Source of the DNA: an uncultured Verrucomicrobiota bacterium
Lineage (GTDB): Bacteria > Verrucomicrobiota > Verrucomicrobiia > Limisphaerales > UBA9464
Assembly: GCA_903907925.1 (NCBI GenBank)
Contig: CAIVQB010000056.1
Span: 1 to 50,591 of the forward strand
Length of the DNA stretch: 50,591 nucleotides
Direction of reading: 5' to 3'
Within the stretch, counting starts at the first letter, position 1, and every line of letters begins with the position of its first letter. The position numbers and the translations under genes are program-made. The notes beneath the pieces are model-generated. The model did no database searches. It was not told the DNA's origin and worked only from the letters and a program-made list of their open reading frames with translations. Positions 21,465 through 34,158 of this stretch are shown piece by piece.

Positions 21465-23981
21465 TCAGCGGTTGAACAGGAACGACGGGCTGTTGAGCAG
21501 CGCCCAGGCGAGGTCTTGCGCGCTTTCGAGGCGTTTGTCGCCGTCGCCCAGTTTGATTTCGGCGAGTTCCTTGTCGGTCGGCGGCCGGCTGAGGCAGCTC
21601 AGATAAACTTCCTCCACCACCTTGCGGTCATCCTTTTCATGGGTGATCAGGGAGGCAAACCGGTTTTCCGCGCTGGTTACGCTGTCGCCCAGGGTCGGGC
21701 CGTTGATGAGGTTCAGGGCATGCGAGAGGGTCACGTTGCTGGAGCGTTCGCATTCGCACGCGCTCTGGCGTTTCGGCCGGCCGAACAGGGTGAGGAAATC
21801 ATTCCCGCCCACCATGCCGTCGGGAATCTCAACCGCGCGCAATCCTGCCGGCAGATCCTTGAACTGCGGCCGGTGTCCGGTGGCGATGGCGACGGCGTCC
21901 AGCATTTGCTCGGCGCTGAGCCGGCGCGGACTAGCGTGGGAAAAATTGATCGTGTCGTCTTCGTTCCAGCGGTTCGGAACGATGCTCAATTGATAGGTCT
22001 GCGACCGGCAAATGTTCCGCATCAGATGACGCAAATCATGGCCGCTCTTCACAAACTCCACCGTGAGGGCGTCGAGAAGCGCCGGGTTGCTGGCCGGATT
22101 GCCGGCGCGGATGTCATCCACCGGATCGATGATGCCACGTCCGAAGAAATAGCTCCAAAACCGGTTCACCGTGGACTTCGCAAAGTACGGATTGTTGGTC
22201 GAGGTCAGCCATTCGGCGAAGGCGGCGCGGCGATCCTCACCGGCAGCGATGTCCCGTGCCTCGCCATACGGAACCTTGGGCGCGACGGGTTGATCGGTCT
22301 TGGGATGGCGGACTTCGCCGCCGTTGAAATTCTGGTAAACGATGTCCTCCGACACCTGCTCGGAGGCGTAAGTTTCGTTCGGTCGGATCAAGGTGTCGCG
22401 TCCGAGCGTGCCTCGCTTGAAAGCCACCTGGGCGAAATAGGCGCCGAACGCGTAGTACTGATTCTGGGTCCAGCGCTCGAACGGATGATCGTGGCACTTG
22501 TTGCAGTTGAAACGAACGCCCAGAAAGGTCTGCGAGACATCCTCGGTCATTTTGCCTGGATCACGAAGCGCGCGGAGATAGTTGCCGGCCGGGTTTTCGA
22601 AGGTGCTGCCCTTGGCGAGAATGAGGTCGCGCACCAGTTGGTCATACGGACGATTGGCGGCGAGTTGTTCCTGGATCCAGCGGCGGAAAACCCAAACGCC
22701 CTTCTTGCCGAGGTTCTCCGAATTGCACTGGAGCAGGTCGGCGAATTTGTTGGCCCAGAACCCGGCGAAGGCAGGCGAACCGATTAATTCATCGATCAAG
22801 GCTTCGCGTTTCTTTTGTGAGGGCGCCGGGTCGGCGAGGAAGGCCCGCACTCGATCCGACGTGGGCGGCTGCCCCGAGAGATCAAGGTGCACCCGCCGGA
22901 CGAATTCGGCATCGGTGCAGAGCGCGGACGGATTGATCTTCATCCGTTGCAGCTTGGCGTTGACCAGGTGATCGATCTCTCCGCGTTCCGGCATGCCCGC
23001 GAACTGGAACCCGGTGCGATCGCCCATGATCATCACTTCGCGTGCCGAATAGAGCCCTTCGTAGCGGACCAGCACCGCCATTTCGCCGCGTCGAAGCGCG
23101 GTCAGCGTGCTGTCCTTCACCAGGCCGACCTCTTCGTTGTTGCTGGACAGGATGGCCTCGCGGGTCACGTCCCGGGTCGATCCGTCGGGATAAGTGGCAA
23201 GAATCAGGAATTGCTGTTGGCGACCGGGCAGATCGATCTCAACCCGTTCCGGCAGGATGGTGATTCGGGTGGCGCGTGCGGTGGCCGGCGCTTCAAACGG
23301 GGCACCTTCCGAGATCCATTGGCGCAACAGCGTGTGGTATCGCGAACCGGGGACGACTGCCTGCCGGCCTTCGTGAGGCACATCGCCGAGCGGCTTCTGC
23401 AACATCAGGGAATCATCGACATTCACCCGGTTGAACCGGCGTCCGCTGAGATCGTTGACCAACGCTTGGTAGTCGACCTCGGGATCGTATCCGCGCAAGG
23501 ACAGCTTGAATCCATTCTTGCCCTTGGCCGAGCCGTGGCAGGTGCCCTGGTTGCAACCGGTCCGCGCCAGGATGGGCTCGATTTCGCGGACGAACCCGAC
23601 TGGCGGATTCGCGAGTCCTGCGACCGTCACGGGCAGGCGCGCGGAGGCTCCTGCGACGGTCACGGTCACAGTGGTCGAACCAACAGCCTTGGGATTGAAG
23701 TAGGCGTCCTCGCCCGGTGCGATTTCTTTCCCGGAGACCTGAAACTGGGCCTCGGCGGTGAGATCAATGCGGGTTCCATCGGCGCGTTCACCGGAAACCA
23801 GCACTTTTCGGGAATCCCGGGCGTCCTGAAGCGTGAGCGTTGCGGGCTCGACGTGGAGACGTTTGATGGACGGTAGCGGAGGCTTGGGCGGGATGACCTT
23901 GTCGGGTGCCTTGTCCGCGAGGGCGGTGGCTGCGGCCGATAACAGCGCAACACAGGCGGCGGAGCGAAAGAGCTGGTTCAT
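21465..23981 (-). CDS. DUF1549/DUF1553 cytochrome-type protein with Ig-like domain
   Basis: An 838-residue secreted protein (signal peptide residues 1-22). Order of parts: BIG2-like Ig domain (about 40-125); cytochrome-like region with CNQGTCH at 143-149; a second Ig-like region (240-320); DUF1549 (about 335-540), which contains a CNKCH haem-c-type motif at 493-497; and DUF1553 (about 580-830) with STVNRFWSYFFGRGI, NPALLDALTVEFVKSGHDLR and RSQTYQLS. These proteins pair with DUF1501 across Planctomycetes and Verrucomicrobia and are thought to act in periplasmic redox or polymer breakdown. The start ATG was chosen ahead of the signal peptide rather than at 24008. It is the head of the minus-strand cluster. 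Confidence 0.92.
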   Translation of the reverse strand: MNQLFRSAACVALLSAAATALADKAPDKVIPPKPPLPSIKRLHVEPATLTLQDARDSRKVLVSGERADGTRIDLTAEAQFQVSGKEIAPGEDAYFNPKAVGSTTVTVTVAGASARLPVTVAGLANPPVGFVREIEPILARTGCNQGTCHGSAKGKNGFKLSLRGYDPEVDYQALVNDLSGRRFNRVNVDDSLMLQKPLGDVPHEGRQAVVPGSRYHTLLRQWISEGAPFEAPATARATRITILPERVEIDLPGRQQQFLILATYPDGSTRDVTREAILSSNNEEVGLVKDSTLTALRRGEMAVLVRYEGLYSAREVMIMGDRTGFQFAGMPERGEIDHLVNAKLQRMKINPSALCTDAEFVRRVHLDLSGQPPTSDRVRAFLADPAPSQKKREALIDELIGSPAFAGFWANKFADLLQCNSENLGKKGVWVFRRWIQEQLAANRPYDQLVRDLILAKGSTFENPAGNYLRALRDPGKMTEDVSQTFLGVRFNCNKCHDHPFERWTQNQYYAFGAYFAQVAFKRGTLGRDTLIRPNETYASEQVSEDIVYQNFNGGEVRHPKTDQPVAPKVPYGEARDIAAGEDRRAAFAEWLTSTNNPYFAKSTVNRFWSYFFGRGIIDPVDDIRAGNPASNPALLDALTVEFVKSGHDLRHLMRNICRSQTYQLSIVPNRWNEDDTINFSHASPRRLSAEQMLDAVAIATGHRPQFKDLPAGLRAVEIPDGMVGGNDFLTLFGRPKRQSACECERSSNVTLSHALNLINGPTLGDSVTSAENRFASLITHEKDDRKVVEEVYLSCLSRPPTDKELAEIKLGDGDKRLESAQDLAWALLNSPSFLFNR

Positions 23982-24257
23982 GGCGGTCGCGGACATTGCA
24001 GAACCCAAAAGGGGAATTGATCGACACGCTAGGCCTCGCCGCAGCCTCTGGACAAGGGGGAATTCATGGGGAAGCCATCTGTTTCGGCAGGAACACTACC
24101 TCAAAGGCACCGTCGGACGACGGGTTGAAGAGTTGAAGAGGGACCGTGCTCCACGGTGGGGATAGGCTCCCGCCGATCCGGGCGCGTGGTACGACGTGGG
24201 ACTCCACCGGGCAGGGTTAAATCCGTCCGTCCATTCGGCATCGCGGGAGCGTCGGCC
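23982..24257. other. Intergenic, repeat-like fragments
   Basis: A 276-base stretch with no credible gene. It holds a GTTGAAGAGTTGAAGAGG motif near 24123-24141 that recurs, with small changes, in the inverted repeat at 43295-43315. Farther on (about 24215-24260) is a GCGGGAGCGTCGGCCCTACC-type segment resembling short verrucomicrobial intergenic repeats. A promoter for the DUF1549/DUF1553 operon should lie near 23990-24060, but no clear -35/-10 pair is visible. Confidence 0.4.
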
Positions 24258-25124
24258 CTACCGGGCGAGCGCGGGGTCAGAGACGCGGAAGGAAATGGGA
24301 ACTGCCGTGGATGCAGGCTGGCCGTTGGTGCTGCCGCGGCGGTAGCCGGCCAGATCCAGGGTCACCTGCTGGTAGCCGAGCGACCGAAACTGTTCGGCGA
24401 TTCGCGATGAACTTCCCGAAGCAATCAACCGGCCGAGTTCCTCCGGTCCGACTTCAATGCGGGCCAGATGGCCACCCGTGATTTCGTGGTGGCGGACCCG
24501 AACGTCATGGAATCCCAGATCGCGGAGATGGTATTCCGCCTCCTCGATCATCCGGAGCTTTTGCACGGTGACCGCTTCGCCGGTGGGAATCCGGGAACTG
24601 AGGCAGGCTAGTTGAGGCTTATCCGCCGTGGGCAGGTTGAGGCGGGCGCTGAGTTCACGGATCTCGGCCTTGGTCAGGCCCACTTCCTTCAGCGGTGCGC
24701 GGATTTGAAACTCTGCGGCGGCCTGGGCACCCGGCCGGTGTTCGCCGACATCCGAGGCGTTTTCACCGTAGGCGATCACTGCAAAACCTCCCGCGCGGGC
24801 AAGGGGAATCAACTCGGTGAACAGCGCGTGTTTGCAGAAGTAACAACGATTTCCGGGATTCGCCAGGTACCGTTCGTCCGCGAACTCCGCGGTGGTGGCG
24901 ACGCAGACCGGGAATTGAAACTGCTCGGCAATCTCCAGTGCCTCGCGGAGTTCCCGGCGCGGCAGACTGGGGGAATCCGCAATGACAGCCAACGACCGGT
25001 CGCCGAGGATTTCATGAGCCACGGCCGCCAGGAAAACCGAGTCGACCCCGCCGGAATAGGCGATCACGCAGGATCCGAATCCGCGCAGCATCTCGCGGAG
25101 CTGGGAGTATTTGGCGTCGATCAC
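24258..25124 (-). CDS. larE: LarE family ATP-dependent sulfur transferase
   Basis: A 288-residue PP-loop enzyme. The ATP pyrophosphatase motif SGGVDS is at 24-29. LarE adenylates and sulfurates pyridinium-3,5-biscarboxylic acid mononucleotide while building the nickel-pincer cofactor of lactate racemase-like enzymes. Cys94 and Cys97 (GNRCYFCKH) and Cys174 (QLACLSSRIPTGE) form a three-cysteine set, as in LarE proteins reported to hold a [4Fe-4S] cluster rather than a single sacrificial cysteine. The frame is open upstream to 25964, but the conserved protein begins around the GTG at 25124. No larA, larB or larC lies in the window, so partners must be elsewhere. Confidence 0.87.
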   Translation of the reverse strand: MIDAKYSQLREMLRGFGSCVIAYSGGVDSVFLAAVAHEILGDRSLAVIADSPSLPRRELREALEIAEQFQFPVCVATTAEFADERYLANPGNRCYFCKHALFTELIPLARAGGFAVIAYGENASDVGEHRPGAQAAAEFQIRAPLKEVGLTKAEIRELSARLNLPTADKPQLACLSSRIPTGEAVTVQKLRMIEEAEYHLRDLGFHDVRVRHHEITGGHLARIEVGPEELGRLIASGSSSRIAEQFRSLGYQQVTLDLAGYRRGSTNGQPASTAVPISFRVSDPALAR

Positions 25125-25253
25125 CCGAACAGCATGCCCCGGCCGGCCCGCTTGTCCAGTCGCCGGGGCGGGTTCAACAAAGGAGGGTTGAACCGCCGCC
25201 GGGTTTTGTAGCTTGGGTTTCGACCGGGAGTTGCGCCATCCTTGGCCGGTCGC

Positions 25254-26762
25254 ATGGAACGGAGCCAGAATCGGACCCCAGAAGCCTACAAGCAGTTGGA
25301 GAACGCCAGCGCGGTGGTCTTGATCTTCATGACCGTCTGGGCTCCGTGGGCGTTTGGCTCGACGTCGCTGTTTAACCGGACGGTCCTGGCCCTCGCCGGC
25401 TACGTCGCCGGACTTCTTCTGGCCGGAAAATGGTGGGTTCGACGCTCCACCGGTTACAAACCCGCGCGGTGGGGCGAACCGACTCCCCGGGGAGAGACGC
25501 TGGTTCGATGCCTGGCTGCGTTGACTGTCGTTTTCCTGGTGTACGTGTTGATCGGCGTCCTTAACGCGCGGGCGGTGGGTGAGTATATCTCCTCGGGACC
25601 CACCCAGGGGGTCAATCTCAACTATCTGGACCGCACCCCGATTTCGTGGCTTCCCGCCAGCTACGACCGGCCGGTTTCGCTGGAGGCATTCTTTCGATGG
25701 ACGAGTCTGGCGCTTGCGTTCTGGGCGGCGCGGGACTGGTTCCTGGGCAAAACGCGTTCCGAACGGCGAGAAACGGATCCGGAGCTGATGTTTTTTCCCG
25801 GCGATCGACTGAACCTCTGGCTCTGGATGCTGATGGGCAGCAGCTTTCTGCTCGCGGTGGTGAGCATCATTCAGCGGATGGACGGCACGGAGAAGCTGTT
25901 GTGGCTGGTGACGCCCCGGGTGCGGGATCCGAATTCGCAATGGGGCTATCCGCCGAACTTTCATTTCGGTCCCTACAACTACCGCGGCAATGCGGCACAG
26001 TATTTCAATCTGATCTGGCCGGTGGCGGTTGGGTTTTGGTGGACCTCACGGGAAATCGAACGCCGGACCCGGGGAATCGCCTCGCGGGCCGGTCAGGGAC
26101 CCGATGTCCTGTTGCTGCCCTGGGCGATTATTTTGGGCGCAGCCCCGATCGCCTCGACCAGCCGTGGCGGAGCCCTTGTCTCGGTCATTCTCGCTGCCGG
26201 CACCGGTGTGGTCCTGTCCTCGTCCCGCTCTATTCGCTCGCTGAAGGGTCGGTTCTCGGCCCTGGGAATCGTCGCACTGGTATTGGCTGTTGGGGCGTGG
26301 ATCGGCGGCAGTGAACTCGTCGGCCGGATCCAATCCTCGCAGACGAATCCCTACAACAGCCGTCTGTCGGTGTATGACGCCGCCCTGAAGATGGAGGCGG
26401 ATTTCCGCTGGCTGGGTTCGGGTGCCGACACCTTCGCCTCGGTGCACCCGTTTTATCGCAACGCGCCCACCGACGAGTGGGTCGGCTACGCCCACAACGA
26501 CTGGCTCGAGTCGGTGATCACCCTGGGCGTCGTCGGGACCACGGTTCTCGTCTTGATGCTCGTCCTGGCCGTGCTCATTCCGTGGATGAACCGTAGACCC
26601 GGCGTCCCAAGGGAGTTCGCCGCGTTGCTCGGGCTCGGACTGGGAGGCATGCTGCTGCACGCGACCTGGGATTTCCCGTTCCAGATCATGTCACTCCAGT
26701 TGGAATTCTTGTTTGTTTTGGCGGCATTGACCACGTTCGGCCGCAAGGGATCGGCAGGCTGA
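25254..26762 (+). CDS. O-antigen ligase/polymerase family protein (Wzy_C type)
   Basis: A 502-residue inner-membrane protein with about ten to twelve predicted spans. The family hallmark is the periplasmic loop between about 370 and 425 (LKMEADFRWLGSGADTFASV, then VGYAHNDWLESVITLGVVG), preceded by APIASTSRGG. Such proteins polymerise O-antigen/exopolysaccharide repeats or ligate glycan to lipid A or proteins. WaaL and Wzy cannot be separated by sequence alone. The start is the ATG at 25254, with an in-frame TTG upstream at 25242. It is followed by a sugar-phosphate transferase on the same strand after about 85 bases, which supports an exopolysaccharide or O-antigen role. Confidence 0.85.
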   Translation: MERSQNRTPEAYKQLENASAVVLIFMTVWAPWAFGSTSLFNRTVLALAGYVAGLLLAGKWWVRRSTGYKPARWGEPTPRGETLVRCLAALTVVFLVYVLIGVLNARAVGEYISSGPTQGVNLNYLDRTPISWLPASYDRPVSLEAFFRWTSLALAFWAARDWFLGKTRSERRETDPELMFFPGDRLNLWLWMLMGSSFLLAVVSIIQRMDGTEKLLWLVTPRVRDPNSQWGYPPNFHFGPYNYRGNAAQYFNLIWPVAVGFWWTSREIERRTRGIASRAGQGPDVLLLPWAIILGAAPIASTSRGGALVSVILAAGTGVVLSSSRSIRSLKGRFSALGIVALVLAVGAWIGGSELVGRIQSSQTNPYNSRLSVYDAALKMEADFRWLGSGADTFASVHPFYRNAPTDEWVGYAHNDWLESVITLGVVGTTVLVLMLVLAVLIPWMNRRPGVPREFAALLGLGLGGMLLHATWDFPFQIMSLQLEFLFVLAALTTFGRKGSAG

Positions 26763-26848
26763 ACATCGGGTGAACCGAGCATGATGCCCGCAGGGGATCA
26801 CCGGTGCGGAAACCCTCCTTCGAACCCAGGCCTTCAGCGAGATTCGAG

Positions 26849-28360
26849 ATGGATTCATCGGACACGTCACCAACACCCGCACCCGGTTCACCGGCTGGCT
26901 GGGAACACTCCCTCATGGTCCGGTCGAGTCCACGGGATGTCGTGGCCGAGGGGTTGAACATGCTGGCGGTGATGGGTGACCTGGCAATGATCCTTCTCGG
27001 CCTCGTTCTGGGCTATTGGTTTCGATTCAAGTCCGGCTGGGTTCCCGCCCGGGCCGGCTGGTGGACCTCCGATGAATTCCAGCTCCCCCAGTTCCACGAA
27101 TACATCGGCCTGATCGTGGTCGGTGCGATCTTCCTGTTCCTGACCTATCTGTATCTGGATCTTTATCAGGTCCAGAATCTCCTCCGGATCCGACGGGTGG
27201 CCAACCAGGTGGTGAAGGGGGCCGTGTTCTGGCTGTTCGCCTACCTCAGCCTCAGTCTGGTGCTGCGCTTCTCGCCGCCGATATCGCGCATCTACGTCGC
27301 GGGTTCGTTTTTCTCGGTGGTCACCTGCATGCTCATCTGGCGAGCCTTGCTGTATCGCGTCCTCCGTCTCGGTCAGATCGCGGAAGCTCTGCGATTCAAC
27401 GTGCTGTTCGTCGGCTGGAATTCCGAGGCCACGCGGGTTGCCGAACTTCTCCAGGGAGATCCGCATCAGCCGTATCGTTTGATCGGCTGCGTTCCGGCAC
27501 CCGGCGGACGGTTTCAAAACCTTCCCAACGTCGCGATCCGTCAATTTGCAGCCTACGAAAACCTTTCCGCGGTCATCCAGACCGAGGCGATCGACATGGT
27601 GGTCCTCGCCGACGTTGAAACCTCAATGCAGGACATCGTCAGCCTTTCCAACCAGTGCGAGCGGGACCTCGTCCAATTCAAGATCATCCCGTCCTACTTC
27701 CAAATCCTGGTCTCCGGGCTGAAACTCGATTCGATCGCCGGGGTTCCCATCATGGGGGTCACCGAGCTGCCTCTGGATCGGATCCTCAACCGGTTCCTCA
27801 AACGTACCGTCGACATCCTCGGCGCCTTGGTGGGCCTGCTGCTGGCTACGCCGATCATGGTGGTACTGGGAATCGCCATTTTCGCGGAATCCCCCGGACC
27901 CATCCTGTTCTTCCAGGAACGGGTGGGACGCGCGGGCCGGGTGTTCCGTATGTTGAAATTGCGCAGCATGCGACTGGGGGCAGATCGCACCGATCACATC
28001 CAGCAATCGACCGGACGCGAGGATCCCCGCCTGCTCCGGATCGGGGCGTTCATCCGGCGCTGGAATCTCGACGAGGTCCCGCAGTTCTGGAACGTCCTTC
28101 TGGGCGACATGAGCCTCGTTGGTCCCCGACCGGAACGCACCTATCATTCGGAACAACTCAGCTTCCGGATCCCCCACTACAACGCCCGGCTGGCCAGCAA
28201 ACCCGGCATGACCGGCTGGGCCCAGGTCAACGGCCTCCGTGGCGACACCGATCTTGTCGAACGCGTCCGCTACGATCTGCACTACCTGGAGAATTGGTCC
28301 CTCTGGCTCGACTTCCAAATCATGGTTCAGACGTTCTTCAAGCGGGAGAACGCCTATTAA
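26849..28360 (+). CDS. Undecaprenyl-phosphate sugar phosphotransferase (WcaJ/WbaP type)
   Basis: A 503-residue polyprenol-phosphate hexose-1-phosphate transferase that starts glycan assembly on undecaprenyl phosphate. The N-terminal third has four to five membrane spans, then a Rossmann-like CoA-binding domain ([20 protein letters not shown]). The C-terminal bacterial sugar transferase domain contains [60 protein letters not shown] and LVGPRPER, all diagnostic. A GTG at 26804 would add 15 residues; the ATG at 26849 is chosen but not decisive. Linked to the O-antigen ligase/polymerase upstream. Sugar (glucose or galactose) not determined. Confidence 0.92.
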
Positions 28361-28604: not shown

Positions 28605-29780
28605 TCATTGCCTGCTTCGCGAGTCGGGTCGCGAACCGCTGGTCCCCGTCGGACCGCCCGTCGGGGCATTGGTCTTGAACGCGGATCGGAACAGCCAGTG
28701 GCGGCGCAACAGTGTGTCGGTGGTGTCGGAGAGTTGAGCCGCCTTGTCGGCCAGTCGGCTGACGTTGGCGAGGAGATTGGTGTCGGTGACCTTCGTCTGG
28801 AGGACGGTCACCATCTCCTGAACACTCGCAACGGCCCGACGGATGTCGTCCAGCAGCGGGCCGGCGCGTTGTGACGTTTCCTGCGCGGTATCGAGGGTCT
28901 TGTTGACGCGATCAAACACCGGACCCAGACGCTCGGATTGCTGGTGGACATCCGCCAGTACGGTGTCGAGCCGCTGATTCAGATTGGTGGGAATCAACAG
29001 TGCTCCCATGCCGCCGGGTCGTTCCAGGACGGGCTGCAGTTCGGTGGTGATCAGGCGCAGGTTTCTGAGGACGGTCTGAAGTTCATTGGTCATCCCCGGC
29101 AACGCGACGTCTATGACACCACTCACCCGGTCCACCTTGGCCATAATCCGCTGCGCCTGCGCCGTGAGGGTCTCGGATTGATCCAGACTGAGGTAGTATC
29201 CCTGGTTGCCCTTGGACAACGGGCTGTATTTCAGGAAGCGGTTGGTGCGCTCCAACGATGGCAACTTGTAGGCGAATTGATCCCACAACACTCCAGTCCG
29301 GCCGCCCGGCAGGTTGGTGGTGGTGACGATGCCTTCCGGAGTCCCAACCGAGATTTCCAGGACAATGCCGCCGGCAATGTCGACCGGAAATCCGCCGATG
29401 GTGACCCGGGAATCGGTGTTGATGTATCCGGGATACTCACCGCGCACGGTGAAACCGACAAAGACGTTGAAATTATTGGACGCGTAATAGTCCCAGCTCC
29501 GCCGCTGCTCCAGATTGATGGGATCGACCCGGGTGACTTGCCCGACCTTGAATCCCATGAGTTGAACCGGTGTTCCGGTATGGATGCCCGTCGCCTGCGG
29601 CACGAAGGTGTAGTAGGGCACCTCCGTGACCCACCAGCCCCGCGCCTCGCCGGTGGTGCGGATGAACCAGGCGAACAGCGCGACTGCCACCGCGACCGCG
29701 CCAACAAGGAACAGCATCACGAGCCATTCCACCTTGTGAAGGCGGGTGCGGAGCTGGGGGGTGAGATCTTGGAGAGCCAT
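28605..29780 (-). CDS. MCE-domain (MlaD-like) lipid transport protein
   Basis: A 391-residue inner-membrane protein exposed to the periplasm. One N-terminal span (VEWLVMLFLVGAVAVAVALF, about 18-38) is followed by a single MCE/MlaD domain (about 50-150) with TGIHTGTPVQLMGFKVGQVT and the long GYINTDSRVTIGGFPVDIAG part. The C-terminal ~180 residues are amphipathic helices rich in Leu, Asp and Thr, which probably form a tube or bundle like PqiB/LetB tails but with only one MCE ring. Ends in a disordered Gly/Ser/Arg tail. It follows the ATPase by 6 bases. With MlaE and MlaF it should move phospholipids across the envelope. Confidence 0.88.
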   Translation of the reverse strand: MALQDLTPQLRTRLHKVEWLVMLFLVGAVAVAVALFAWFIRTTGEARGWWVTEVPYYTFVPQATGIHTGTPVQLMGFKVGQVTRVDPINLEQRRSWDYYASNNFNVFVGFTVRGEYPGYINTDSRVTIGGFPVDIAGGIVLEISVGTPEGIVTTTNLPGGRTGVLWDQFAYKLPSLERTNRFLKYSPLSKGNQGYYLSLDQSETLTAQAQRIMAKVDRVSGVIDVALPGMTNELQTVLRNLRLITTELQPVLERPGGMGALLIPTNLNQRLDTVLADVHQQSERLGPVFDRVNKTLDTAQETSQRAGPLLDDIRRAVASVQEMVTVLQTKVTDTNLLANVSRLADKAAQLSDTTDTLLRRHWLFRSAFKTNAPTGGPTGTSGSRPDSRSRQ

Positions 29781-29786
29781 GGGATT

Positions 29787-30557
29787 TCAGGAGGGATCAC
29801 CGAGCACTTCGCGGAGGCCGGATTCTTCACAGGCGAGAACGTTTTGACGGTCGCCCAGGACCCGCCAGGCACCGCGATCAATCAAGGCGAACCGGTGCCC
29901 CAAGCCCAACAGCGGACGGAGCGTGTCGGTGCCAATCACGACCGTCGCCGGCCTGCCCAGCAACCACGGATGCCCGGACGCCACCGATTCAATCAGGGTT
30001 CGCCACCAGCGGAATTGTCCTGAATCGAGACCGGAGAACGGGTCGTCGAGCAAAAGCAGTTCGGGCCGCAAGGCCAGCGACCGCGCCAGCGCCACCCGCA
30101 ACGTCCAACTCCTCCCGAGGTGAGCCGGAAACGACGCGGACACCGATTCGATGCCGAGTGCCTCCAGCAGCGGAGCCACGATTTCCGCGGCCGCGGACAA
30201 CGACAAATCCTCGTGATATCGCAGGGGCAGGGTCACGTTTTCCATCACCGTCAGGGATGAAAACAAACGGCCGGTGCCCGAAAACAATACGCCGATCCGC
30301 TTCCGGATGCCGGTCAGTTCATCGCCCCGAAGCGGAGCCAGGGATTCGCCAAAGAGCTTCAATTCGCCCGCCGCCACCGGCCGGAGTCCGGCCGCAGTTT
30401 CCAACAGGCCTGAGATCCCCGACCCTTGCAGCCCGCTGACCACCCAGCATTCGCCGCGGGCCACCGACCAGTCCACTCCAGCGAGAGGACCGCGACCCGG
30501 CCGGCGCGAGTCGGCAACCTCCACACCCACCATTTCGATCACGTCGGAGGTATTCAC
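29787..30557 (-). CDS. MlaF-like ABC ATPase with degenerate nucleotide-binding motifs
   Basis: A 256-residue ABC-type subunit between MlaE and MlaD, in the position of MlaF. It departs from active ATPases in several motifs. The Walker A is GLQGSGIS (42-49), with Ile48 in place of Lys. The Q-loop reads LFS (Gln to Ser93). The signature is LGRSW (147-151) instead of LSGGQ, and the H-loop is GTD (His to Thr210). Walker B LLLLDD (167-172) and D-loop SGLDS remain. The reading frame is intact, so it is under selection. It may bind nucleotide weakly or play a structural role. The GTG at 30557, 4 bases after mlaE, is chosen; the frame opens from 30596. Confidence 0.82.
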   Translation of the reverse strand: MNTSDVIEMVGVEVADSRRPGRGPLAGVDWSVARGECWVVSGLQGSGISGLLETAAGLRPVAAGELKLFGESLAPLRGDELTGIRKRIGVLFSGTGRLFSSLTVMENVTLPLRYHEDLSLSAAAEIVAPLLEALGIESVSASFPAHLGRSWTLRVALARSLALRPELLLLDDPFSGLDSGQFRWWRTLIESVASGHPWLLGRPATVVIGTDTLRPLLGLGHRFALIDRGAWRVLGDRQNVLACEESGLREVLGDPS

Positions 30558-30561
30558 GGGG

Positions 30562-31377
30562 TCACAACAGCAGGTAGATCGGAACAAACGCCGCATCCAC
30601 CAGGAGGCAGCCGATCCCGCAGATCGCCACAGTCCGGGTGGTGGCCATTCCCACCTCTTCCAGCCGGATCGGATGAGCGAGGCCCTGATAGCAGATGACC
30701 ATGCCGGTCAGGCTTCCGAAGATCGCGGTCTTCACCATCATCAACGGGAAATCGATCCAACTCAGCGCGGCGGCGATTCCACTCAGGTAGTTCGGAAAGG
30801 TCAGCGGCAGACCCCGGGCGAATGCGAATCCGTAGCCACTGAACAGGGTGACCAGCATCAGATAAACCGTCAGTCCCATGACCGCGATCGTGAAACCGAC
30901 GACCCGAGGTACGACACAATAGTGGATCGGATCGATGCCCAGCGCTTCCAAGGCTTCCACCTCACCCATAGCGCGTGCGGTTCCCAGATCGACCACCGTG
31001 GCCGTACCCACCCGCGCCAGCACCACCAACGCCGCGACCAGCGGTGACAGTTCGCGGACCACCACGGTCACCAGCAATACCCCCGTCAGGTTTCCGGCTC
31101 CCACCTGTTGGAGAACCGCGACCGCCTGACCCACGATCACCACTCCCAGAATAAGACCGAGAAAACAAACCATCGGCACCAGCCGGGCACCGGCCCGGAA
31201 CACCTGCTGGCGGATCAGGGGGCGAATCACCGCGCGGGAATGGCCGGTCTTGGTGAGGACAGTACCGAGTGTGATCAGCGTGAAGGCGGTCAGTCGGGGA
31301 AGTGTCTCGGTCAGATCACGCAACAATCCCGCCGTCGCCACGATCAGCGACGAGGAGGGAGCGCGGTCTGAATCCAC
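30562..31377 (-). CDS. MlaE family ABC permease
   Basis: A 271-residue integral membrane protein of the MlaE/YrbE permease family (GTG start). The N-terminal amphipathic helix is followed by five to six spans. The family core is VVRELSPLVAALVVLARVGT, then GTARAMGEVEALEALGIDPI and HYCVVPRVVGFTIAVMGL, where the E-x-x-A-L-x-x-x-G-I-D-P segment couples to the ATPase. The next span set ends with KTAIFGSLTGMVICYQGLAH. It is first in the operon, followed by the MlaF-like and MlaD-like genes, so the set forms a phospholipid transporter of the inner membrane. MlaA, MlaB and MlaC are absent from the window. Confidence 0.9.
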   Translation of the reverse strand: MDSDRAPSSSLIVATAGLLRDLTETLPRLTAFTLITLGTVLTKTGHSRAVIRPLIRQQVFRAGARLVPMVCFLGLILGVVIVGQAVAVLQQVGAGNLTGVLLVTVVVRELSPLVAALVVLARVGTATVVDLGTARAMGEVEALEALGIDPIHYCVVPRVVGFTIAVMGLTVYLMLVTLFSGYGFAFARGLPLTFPNYLSGIAAALSWIDFPLMMVKTAIFGSLTGMVICYQGLAHPIRLEEVGMATTRTVAICGIGCLLVDAAFVPIYLLL

Positions 31378-31558: not shown

Positions 31559-32773
31559 CTAGGGGCCTGCGTTTGGAGTTCCAACCCGCGCCCGCACCCA
31601 ACGCCAGAGCCTCCCCGGCCAGGTCGGATCCATGCAGGGCCGTTCGACGAACCGGAAGAAAATGAGCGCGGCACCCACCACCAGTCCGCTTAGTATCACG
31701 AACTGGAGGGCAAAAAAGGCGAGGTAGGGAAGCGATCGCCCGTACTTGGCCGTTTGGTTGGCAGCCATCTCGAGGAACGGCAGATGAATCAGGTAGATCG
31801 AGTAACACATCCCACCGATCACCGCCACCCACGGCGTCGCCAGTCCCTTCCGGATCCGGTTTCCATTGAGAACGCCCAATACAAAGCAGCCGGACGTCAC
31901 CACGTTCATCAACCCAAAGGCACCCACGAGGCCCAACTGCTTCTGGAAGACCAGTAGTGCGAGCGAGCCCAGCGCGAGCCCGTCCATCAGTGATCCCAGG
32001 GACTTTTGATTCGACGGGACCCGGTTCAACAACCGCGTCAGGTCCACTACCACAAATCCGACCAGGAAGAACGGCATGAATCCCAGGAGACTGTTGATGG
32101 TGTGGGAATTGTCGTTGGCTGCGGCCGTCACCGTGAACCACCACAGTGTCACGCAAGCCCCCAGGCCGATCACCCGGCGGGCCGATCGGAACCGGGTCAA
32201 GATCCACGCCAGGAATGGCGCCAGCAGATAGAATTGGACCTCCACTTCGAGCGACCAGGCAGGCGGGTTCAACTTGGGCAGCGTGCCATAGATGATTCCA
32301 TAGCTGTAGAGTGCGCTGGCGATCAGGGCGTCGGTCAGAGTCGAAGCGCCCTCATTGAGGGAACGCGAGAAACTGCTGTGGAATCCGGAGATCGTCAGAA
32401 ACAGAAAGATTCCAAACAGGACCAGTAGGTACGGGGGCTCCAAGCGGGTCAGGCGGCGCGAATAAAAAGTGACCACCGACACCGGTGCCCCGGAATCCAT
32501 CCGTGAAATGAGAGATTTGCCCAGGATGTAACCGCTCAACGAAAAAAAGATCCAAACCCCGGCATCGCCCTGCATCAGGAGGTGATCCAGCCAGCTCGAA
32601 TGCACCTCCGGATAGACATCGCCTGCCCTCCGCAGGACCCGCTCATGGATATGCTGGAGCAGGACCAGCGTGATCGCCACGAACCGGATGCCATCCACCT
32701 CGGGAACCCACGGGCCCGAGGAGGTGATACGTCGAAGCGATGAGAGTCGGTTCGCAGGGGGCGTCACTTCCAC
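31559..32773 (-). CDS. Acyltransferase family 3 (OafA/YrhL-like) membrane protein
   Basis: A 404-residue membrane-bound O-acyltransferase with about ten spans. The family segments are VDGIRFVAITLVLLQHIHER near the N-terminus (conserved R and H), GDAGVWIFFSLSGYILGKSL, and SRRLTRLEPPYLLVLFGIFL. These enzymes acetylate or succinylate sugars of O-antigen, peptidoglycan or exopolysaccharide from the cytoplasmic face. The start appears to be GTG, with a second GTG two codons in. It stands alone between mlaE and cinA on the same strand. Acceptor unknown, but the many glycan genes in the window make a surface polysaccharide the natural guess. Confidence 0.88.
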   Translation of the reverse strand: MEVTPPANRLSSLRRITSSGPWVPEVDGIRFVAITLVLLQHIHERVLRRAGDVYPEVHSSWLDHLLMQGDAGVWIFFSLSGYILGKSLISRMDSGAPVSVVTFYSRRLTRLEPPYLLVLFGIFLFLTISGFHSSFSRSLNEGASTLTDALIASALYSYGIIYGTLPKLNPPAWSLEVEVQFYLLAPFLAWILTRFRSARRVIGLGACVTLWWFTVTAAANDNSHTINSLLGFMPFFLVGFVVVDLTRLLNRVPSNQKSLGSLMDGLALGSLALLVFQKQLGLVGAFGLMNVVTSGCFVLGVLNGNRIRKGLATPWVAVIGGMCYSIYLIHLPFLEMAANQTAKYGRSLPYLAFFALQFVILSGLVVGAALIFFRFVERPCMDPTWPGRLWRWVRARVGTPNAGP

Positions 32774-32819
32774 CGCGCGACCCTACGCAGCGACAGGCCG
32801 ACGCTGCAACTGGTCATCA

Positions 32820-34100
32820 TCAGGAAGGCGAACCCGGGACCCCCCGGACCATTGTCCACAGCAACATCAACGCCTGTTGCGCCGTCAGGTACTTGAACGT
32901 TTCACGATCGAAGCGGTTCACCTGGCGACGGACCATCACCCCGGCCGGACCGGCGACCGCGATGAACACCAGGCCGACCGGTTTTTCAGCGCTTCCACCC
33001 GAAGGTCCCGCGATGCCCGTGACGGCAATCGCATAGTCGGCCCCCGTCGCCCGTTGTGCGCCGACGACCATTTCCCGCACGGTTTCTTCGCTGACCGCTC
33101 CGTGGACTTCCAGAGTGGCCGGAAGAACACCGAGGTCATGGATCTTGGCCGCGTTGGAATAGGTGACATATCCGGCCAGCAACACCTTTGAAGCCCCGGG
33201 AATGTTAGTGATTCGATTGGCGATATGTCCGCCGGTGCACGATTCAGCCAGGGCCAGCGAGAGACCCCGGCGTTCGAACTCGCCCACGATCACCGATTCC
33301 AGCGTCTCATCCTCCACGCCGAAAACAGAAGCGCCCACCCGGTCGCGAGTGATGGCCTCGGCTTTAGCGATCTGCTGCGCCGCGTGTTCGCCACGGGCGG
33401 CAAACCGAACGTCGACCTCGCCGACCCGCGCACAAAATCCGAGATCCATTCCCGCGTCCGTCAATCCTTTCAACGGCCCGGAAATGCGTTCTTCCATCGC
33501 GGATTCGCCAATGCCGGTGGTCTTCAGCGTGCGACACTGGAATCCGTTGGCATCAGGAAACCATTGAGTGAGCAACGGCACGAGTTGGCGATCGAACATC
33601 GGGCGCAACTCGCGGGGCGGGCCGGGGAGCATGACGAGCCGCGAACAAGTGCCACCAGCGCGAAATGGGTTCGGCGTCACTTCGATCGCGAGTCCCGGAG
33701 CGGTGCCGTGGCGGTTGTCGAGCACGGTGGCACCCTCCGGCACCAGGGTCTCCACCTGGGTCCGGGCAGGAACCGCCAAGCCACGACCAGCGAAATAGCG
33801 CGCGATGTTGTCGGCCACGGTCGAATCGGGATGAAGCGGCCGGTTCAACAGGGCCGCGATCCGCTCCCGCGTAAGGTCGTCACAGGTCGGTCCGAGTCCG
33901 CCGGTGGTGATCACCAGGTCGGCGCGCGAAAGTCCCTCGCGAACCGCCGCCTCGATGGCGGGCCCGGTGTCGGGCACCGCGACCTGGCGATCCACCGTGA
34001 ATCCCAGGTCGGAAAGCCGCCGACACAGCCACTGTTGATGGGTGTTGAGAATCCGCCCGAGCAGCAATTCCGAACCGGTGTTGATCAATTCGATCGTCAC
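32820..34100 (-). CDS. cinA: CinA-like protein, MoCF plus nicotinamide-nucleotide amidohydrolase domains
   Basis: A 426-residue two-domain protein. The N-terminal molybdopterin-binding-like domain begins IELINTGSELLLGRILNTHQ and has LVITTGGLGPTCDDLTRERI. The C-terminal PncC-type domain (from about 265) has LALAESCTGGHIANRITNIP and YAIAVTGIAGPSGGSAEKPV, which deamidates nicotinamide mononucleotide for NAD recycling. The domain order and length fit full CinA. The GTG at 34100 aligns with family starts; an ATG at 34124 would add eight residues. Cytoplasmic. It has no competence neighbour here (no recA). Confidence 0.93.
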   Translation of the reverse strand: MTIELINTGSELLLGRILNTHQQWLCRRLSDLGFTVDRQVAVPDTGPAIEAAVREGLSRADLVITTGGLGPTCDDLTRERIAALLNRPLHPDSTVADNIARYFAGRGLAVPARTQVETLVPEGATVLDNRHGTAPGLAIEVTPNPFRAGGTCSRLVMLPGPPRELRPMFDRQLVPLLTQWFPDANGFQCRTLKTTGIGESAMEERISGPLKGLTDAGMDLGFCARVGEVDVRFAARGEHAAQQIAKAEAITRDRVGASVFGVEDETLESVIVGEFERRGLSLALAESCTGGHIANRITNIPGASKVLLAGYVTYSNAAKIHDLGVLPATLEVHGAVSEETVREMVVGAQRATGADYAIAVTGIAGPSGGSAEKPVGLVFIAVAGPAGVMVRRQVNRFDRETFKYLTAQQALMLLWTMVRGVPGSPS

Positions 34101-34158
34101 CCATCCATCGTAGGCCGCCGGCATCGATTGGCAATCAACGGGGACCGGATCGCTGTAG

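Follow-up and report, generated by a model that had tools for sequence, protein, structure and literature searches.

Locus and catalytic motifs

What is left for the ATPase of a lipid transporter to do when the residues expected to hydrolyze ATP are gone? The question is raised by an mlaE/MlaF-like/mlaD gene cluster in the window, by which we mean the whole 50,591-nucleotide contig analyzed here, part of a 4.6 Mb draft genome (G000, 96% complete) of an uncultured Verrucomicrobiota bacterium of the Limisphaerales. The three genes all lie on the minus strand with gaps of 4–6 bases (Table 1). The MlaF-like frame is unbroken, as had been described, from a GTG start at 30557 to a stop at 29787, and residues are numbered here from that GTG; a start at the in-frame ATG at 30596 would overlap MlaE. 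The surrounding genes (25242–28360 and 31559–34124) presumably encode, by their look, O-antigen-ligase-like, undecaprenyl-phosphate sugar transferase, acyltransferase and CinA-like proteins. Counterparts of the stretch 21468–26759 adjoin the operon in the three relatives that also lack the Walker A lysine.

Table 1. Positions of the operon genes and of the motifs discussed in the text (window coordinates)
Feature	Position	Strand	Evidence
MlaE permease, divergent (P0002, 271 aa)	30562..31377	-	PF02405 160.5 bits, cut-off 22.5
MlaE coupling-helix region (RAMGEVEALEALGIDPIHY...VPRVVG), predicted to dock on MlaF	30895..30978	-	a single residue reaches at least 90% in the majority of columns (119 divergent MlaE)
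MlaF-like putative pseudo-ATPase, 256 aa from GTG	29787..30557	-	PF00005 61.4 bits, cut-off 25
A-loop hairpin without aromatic residue	30489..30521	-	no F/Y/W in 140/169 orthologues vs 2/37 canonical paralogues
Walker A GLQGSGIS	30411..30434	-	Ile48 at the Lys site, codon ATC at 30414-30416
Q-loop position, Ser93	30279..30281	-	Gln in 8/169 orthologues, Glu/Asp in 124/169
Signature region LGRSW	30105..30119	-	intact SGG in 0/169 orthologues
Walker B Asp171 retained, catalytic Glu replaced by Asp172	30042..30047	-	Asp171 in 168/169 orthologues, Glu172 in 4/169
H-loop position, Asp211	29925..29927	-	His in 6/169 orthologues, Asp/Glu in 128/169
MlaD, divergent (P0003, 391 aa): TM helix, MCE region, long helices	28605..29780	-	PF02470 29.7 bits, cut-off 25.1
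Conserved MlaD N-terminal stretch before the TM helix (DLTPQLRTRLHKVEW)	29724..29768	-	D5 L6 P8 Q9 R11 T12 R13 E18 invariant in 48 aligned divergent MlaD

The middle gene lies, as is expected of MlaF, between MlaE and MlaD, and its product scores above the Pfam gathering threshold for ABC_tran. The NCBIfam equivalog NF008809 (PRK11831), which has a cut-off of 441 bits, scored it at 82.2 bits; of the genome's MlaF proteins, this model was run on the MlaF-like one only. An AlphaFold2 model (mean pLDDT 95.0) returned MlaF chains as its top three VIA-align rows (Z 30.4, 30.2 and 29.8), the best being 7ch8_J (rmsd 1.9 over 242 residues, 27% identity). Foldseek ranked MceG of Mce1 (8fed) first (E 7.5e-21), followed by MlaF of E. 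coli; since other ABC ATPases, like MceG, rank almost as high, the fold alone does not single out MlaF.

The protein lacks the catalytic ABC motif set (Walker A Lys, Q-loop Gln, LSGG, catalytic Glu and H-loop His). A preliminary description had reported Ile in place of the Walker A Lys, Ser at the Q-loop and LGRSW as the signature, all of which were borne out. It had also assigned a Thr to the position of the H-loop His, which proved to be Asp211, Thr210 being aligned with the Thr that precedes the His in canonical MlaF. The statement that Walker B and the D-loop remain was correct for Asp171 and Asp178, both present, and incorrect for the catalytic Glu that follows Walker B. A further missing element, the A-loop aromatic residue, had been overlooked. 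The expectation that ATP would be hydrolyzed poorly or not at all is supported by these losses together with the E. coli data described in PMC7367683, in which Lys47Ala and Glu170Gln in MlaF singly abolish complementation. The sequence strongly indicates that canonical catalysis has been lost.

Distribution, motif losses and constraint

The features had been presented as a peculiarity of one ATPase, but nearly all of the losses are common to an orthologous family across an order, and only the lysine loss is special to the window's subclade. Orthologues were found in 52 of 58 related genomes (the copy in one genome being a fragment at a contig edge) and, at E 1e-55, in 217 of 293 genomes of the window's order (127 of the 154 better ones). 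When 286 genomes of the class were drawn, 59 matched with 212 bits or more (48 from the window's order and 11 from two other families), and the next row scored 181 bits. A search of 387 genomes of the phylum yielded only two above 180 bits, both of the window's order. Two weak-scoring rows of the order were degenerate as well. A still wider spread of the family was considered and rejected: 15 of the 23 weaker phylum rows from outside the order and four weaker class rows were fetched, and all 19 were canonical at nine columns, while a twentieth fetched stretch, whose placement was guessed, held no match within it. On these comparisons, the view holds that the degenerate MlaF is a conserved orthologous family over one order and two families of the same class, not a singleton. 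A full-text literature search, in which few subscription papers were covered, found no description of a catalytically degenerate MlaF family. One paper (PMC10665443) treats MCE proteins, MlaF and Verrucomicrobia together, and in its relevant text MlaF is mapped by synteny and its residues go unmentioned.

In a scan of GTDB genome contigs, the best 80 of 256 relatives all resembled the MlaF-like protein by sequence; the titles among these 80 loci were mostly Verrucomicrobia, Pedosphaera or Limisphaerales, with some other names. This Verrucomicrobiota operon also stands in several public MAG records whose titles read Akkermansia muciniphila, Klebsiella pneumoniae or Proteobacteria; one of these records is tied to a genome of the window's order, so the titles look wrong.

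Motif residues were counted over 169 distinct orthologues (121 gathered first, then 48 more from 80 fetched stretches). Controls were 37 canonical MlaF paralogues of the same genomes, taken at the same alignment columns and remaining from 42 intended loci after three gave no hit, one proved to be a divergent gene and one was cut short. Lys48 is retained in 164 orthologues, Gly47 in all 169 and Ser/Thr49 in 167, and the Walker A Gly45 in 78 of the first 121. In addition to the residues in Table 1, Ser148, Gly149 and Gly150 of the signature are rare (31, 2 and 23 sequences, respectively). None of Gln93, Gly149, Glu172 and His211 is present in 149 orthologues, and the other 20 retain one. An aromatic residue occupies the aligned A-loop column in 4/169 divergent versus 35/37 canonical sequences, and the divergent sequences carry three extra residues there. 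These losses are more than chance, given that Lys, Gln, Ser, Gly, Gly, Asp, Glu and His are all retained in 37/37 canonical paralogues.

The lost residues have a consensus of replacements, comprising Arg149 (115 of 169), Trp151 (114) and Asn172 (130) besides the acids at 93 and 211 (Table 1), and Trp30, Trp38, Pro111, Tyr114, Trp184 and Trp185 are among the columns nearly fixed in the divergent family only. The signature Arg was associated with the acid at 93 (p 0.008) and with the D-loop Asp178 (p 5e-9) in Fisher tests that, being run on related sequences, are no evidence alone. A salt bridge of this Arg with the acids at 93 or 211 was rejected (p 0.33 for acid 211, in Fisher tests that ignore kinship).

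The Walker A lysine was lost later, within a single subclade of the window's genus, and changed once separately to Arg. Within the genus, Lys48 is absent from four species (Ile in G000; Val in G001, G006 and G007) and retained in four others (G002–G005), and the four Lys-less species form one group (support 98, quick tree of 58 rows). The fifth Lys-less sequence belongs to another family and has Arg at the Walker A Lys and Ser at the Q-loop; two changes are needed for Lys loss on the tree of 169 rows. Ser93 occurs in 5/5 sequences without Lys48 versus 2/164 with it, a link for which two independent events cannot reach significance in a paired test. The preliminary description had allowed that the missing lysine might be a singleton error. 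Sequencing error at Ile48 was rejected, because ATC is two base changes away from either Lys codon and the three Val relatives are public MAGs from separate assemblies.

The MlaF-like gene is under purifying selection, and its constraint is weaker than in the canonical paralogues. Its dN/dS (Nei-Gojobori) was 0.07–0.30 over nine pairs, some of them saturated, and that of canonical MlaF was 0.02–0.12 over five pairs. In matched species pairs the MlaF-like ratio was two to more than four times the canonical one: 0.095 versus 0.021 and 0.052 for G005/G003, 0.21 versus 0.12 for G004/G002, and 0.24 versus 0.07 and 0.10 for G000/G007, where synonymous sites were near saturation. The two nearest Lys-less relatives gave 0.14. 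A pseudogene was rejected, since dN/dS was well below 1 in 9/9 pairs and the flagged in-frame stops inspected in nine rows were natural C-terminal ends; the stop check also covered a tenth row, in which the C-terminus differs, and one further genome with a flagged TGA lay outside it.

Transport partners and the other Mla systems

The neighbors of the MlaF-like gene had been said to look normal, but by their profile scores both are divergent. MlaE and MlaD pass their Pfam gathering scores (Table 1); MlaE reaches 160.6 bits, where the other two MlaE of the genome score 251.6 and 243.8, and misses the TIGR00056 cut-off (108.3 versus 212.2 bits). Of 121 loci, 119 have the divergent MlaE upstream of the MlaF-like gene, 111 have MlaD downstream and 109 have both, and at least one of the twelve loci missing a partner (99 bases) lies at a contig end. 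In the six related genomes that have no MlaF-like gene, a search for divergent MlaE gave at best 85 bits, versus 242 for the positive control; this co-absence check covered those six genomes. For comparison, 20 canonical MlaE were used, namely those above 150 bits.

The coupling-helix stretch is among the best-retained parts of the 119 divergent MlaE, and a role of this helix in docking on MlaF is described in PMC7790496. The conserved N-terminal stretch of the divergent MlaD was not seen in the genome's two canonical MlaD, and it may contact the pseudo-MlaF. The C-terminal KRHWLFRSAFKT of the divergent MlaD is also strongly retained.

The second MlaF that the preliminary description proposed seeking in this genome turned out to be two, both canonical and each in its own operon with its own MlaE and MlaD, so that G000 has three MlaD. 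Most genomes of the family have three MlaE, two canonical and one divergent, in a steady three-system set, and in G000 the canonical systems are on two other contigs. No match to MlaA (PF04333) or MlaC (PF05494) was found in this 96% complete draft at E 0.001.

Candidate roles and comparison with known systems

The reading that we favor, and to which we give about an even chance, is that the pseudo-ATPase holds MlaE and MlaD as an ATP-independent lipid conduit, the mode of transport being what we infer. A subunit of MlaF type would still fold and dock on MlaE and would be unable to run the ATP cycle, as the losses strike the adenine grip (A-loop), the sensing and positioning of the gamma-phosphate (Q-loop, signature and H-loop) and the activation of water (catalytic Glu). 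It may act as a structural cap, holding the MlaE dimer together in an outward-open state free of nucleotide. MlaE and an MlaD ring with long helices would then provide a phospholipid path from the inner membrane toward the outer one, and the genome's two canonical Mla systems would carry out the ATP-driven work. Nucleotide-free MlaFEDB is described as outward-open, with lipid in an MlaE pocket continuous with MlaD (PMC7790496), and PMC11289387 reports that transfer from the membrane to MlaC (anterograde) proceeds without ATP and that ATP drives the retrograde direction. From these two observations, a complex whose MlaF cannot use ATP should sit lipid-open, with lipids presumably following their own gradient. 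The A. baumannii and E. coli literature is noted in PMC7790496 to disagree on the direction of Mla transport. Three MlaD with no match to MlaA or MlaC would fit a bridge better than a shuttle. A claim of a tunnel through MlaD was dropped, as its model (mean pLDDT 72.7) is too weak outside the MCE region.

The motif counts, the A-loop loss, the Lys-less group, purifying selection, the MlaE coupling helix, the co-absence of divergent MlaE and the MlaF fold all speak for a conduit. Against it stand a dN/dS above that of canonical MlaF, the 20 orthologues that retain one of Gln, the first signature Gly, Glu and His, and Lys48, Gly47, Ser/Thr49 and Asp171, whose near-universal retention is an ATP- or phosphate-binding pattern. 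The retained P-loop and Asp171 are unexplained by pure scaffolding; in most family members they may serve as a nucleotide switch, which the window's subclade would have given up.

Taken further, this retention would suit a switch that binds ATP and does not hydrolyze it, a possibility that deserves weight without being probable. Most of the family would bind nucleotide through the P-loop and the Walker B Asp, binding would set the state of MlaE, and the window's subclade, having lost that too, would be fixed in one state. The Asn that replaces the catalytic Glu in most orthologues is reminiscent of the Glu-to-Gln traps, in which ATP is bound and not hydrolyzed, and degenerate sites of human ABC proteins are described as retaining ATP for minutes (PMC7756269). 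However, the A-loop aromatic is gone, Gly45 is often missing, the signature is lost in 169/169 sequences, which would make the usual ATP sandwich impossible, and the gene has been retained although Lys was lost at least twice.

A doubtful further proposal is that the motor of a whole MCE transporter family was converted into a nucleotide-free clamp, in which the acids at 93 and 211 and the signature Arg would replace the nucleotide and Lys48 would be retained as the partner of acid 93, not for ATP. The clamped dimer would hold MlaE outward-open permanently and so form a bridge that carries phospholipids in the anterograde direction without ATP, next to two MlaF systems driven by it. A pairing of Lys48 with acid 93 would explain the distribution of Ser93 between Lys-less and Lys-bearing sequences over two independent losses.

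It is unlikely that a canonical MlaF of the same genome powers the divergent MlaE, whether by joining the pseudo-MlaF in a heterodimer or by exchange. The mycobacterial MceG, which has canonical motifs, is shared by several Mce loci and would be the model for such borrowing; two canonical MlaF are available in the window's genome, and among the MlaE rows listed no genome has the divergent MlaE alone. In a mixed dimer, however, the canonical signature would meet a degenerate Walker site and the degenerate signature a canonical one, leaving both sites incomplete; moreover, the canonical MlaF sit in operons with their own partners, and the pseudo-MlaF almost always sits beside its own MlaE. Slow or unconventional catalysis through Asp172 or Asn172, with acids in place of the Q-loop Gln and H-loop His, is more unlikely still: the conservation of these replacements suggests that they may be functional, but the signature and the A-loop are lost too, and Lys48 and an acid at 93 are both absent from the window's subclade. 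That the gene reflects a sequencing or assembly error, or is on its way to loss, is hardly credible, as the draft status of the genomes and the raised dN/dS are set against Ile or Val from separate assemblies, ratios well below 1 and open frames in the examined loci.

The conduit reading bears on how phospholipids reach the outer membrane and on the direction and ATPase purpose of MlaFEDB, the role of its ATPase activity being stated as unclear in PMC11289387. A natural MlaE-MlaF-MlaD system with an apparently dead motor, selected beside canonical systems, would amount to an experiment already set up by nature: lipid movement by it would mean that at least one direction needs no ATP. MlaF of MlaFEDB (E. 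coli, P. aeruginosa and A. baumannii) is similar in fold, in its MlaE and MlaD neighbors and in docking on MlaE with its coupling helix. In contrast to it, the protein described here has lost the A-loop aromatic, Q-loop Gln, LSGG, catalytic Glu and H-loop His, as well as the Lys in the window's subclade, and, unlike in MlaFEDB, no MlaB was seen beside its gene. MceG of mycobacterial Mce1, the first Foldseek match, is likewise the ATPase of an MCE lipid transporter.

The Mla system of Veillonella parvula, as described in PMC10665443, also consists of three genes, MlaE-MlaF-MlaD, without MlaA, MlaB and MlaC, and its long helical MlaD, like the long MlaD here, is proposed to bridge the envelope. 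Its MlaF, unlike the degenerate one here, is said in the same source to closely resemble that of model diderms, and its MlaD ends in a beta-barrel, an element reported there as absent in PVC bacteria. Finally, CFTR, TAP and SUR have also lost catalytic residues and retained function, but one of their two sites is canonical (as described in PMC7756269), whereas the sole encoded partner here is the same degenerate subunit. A homodimer would consequently have two dead sites, and an ABC transporter built in this way would be an unusual pseudoenzyme.
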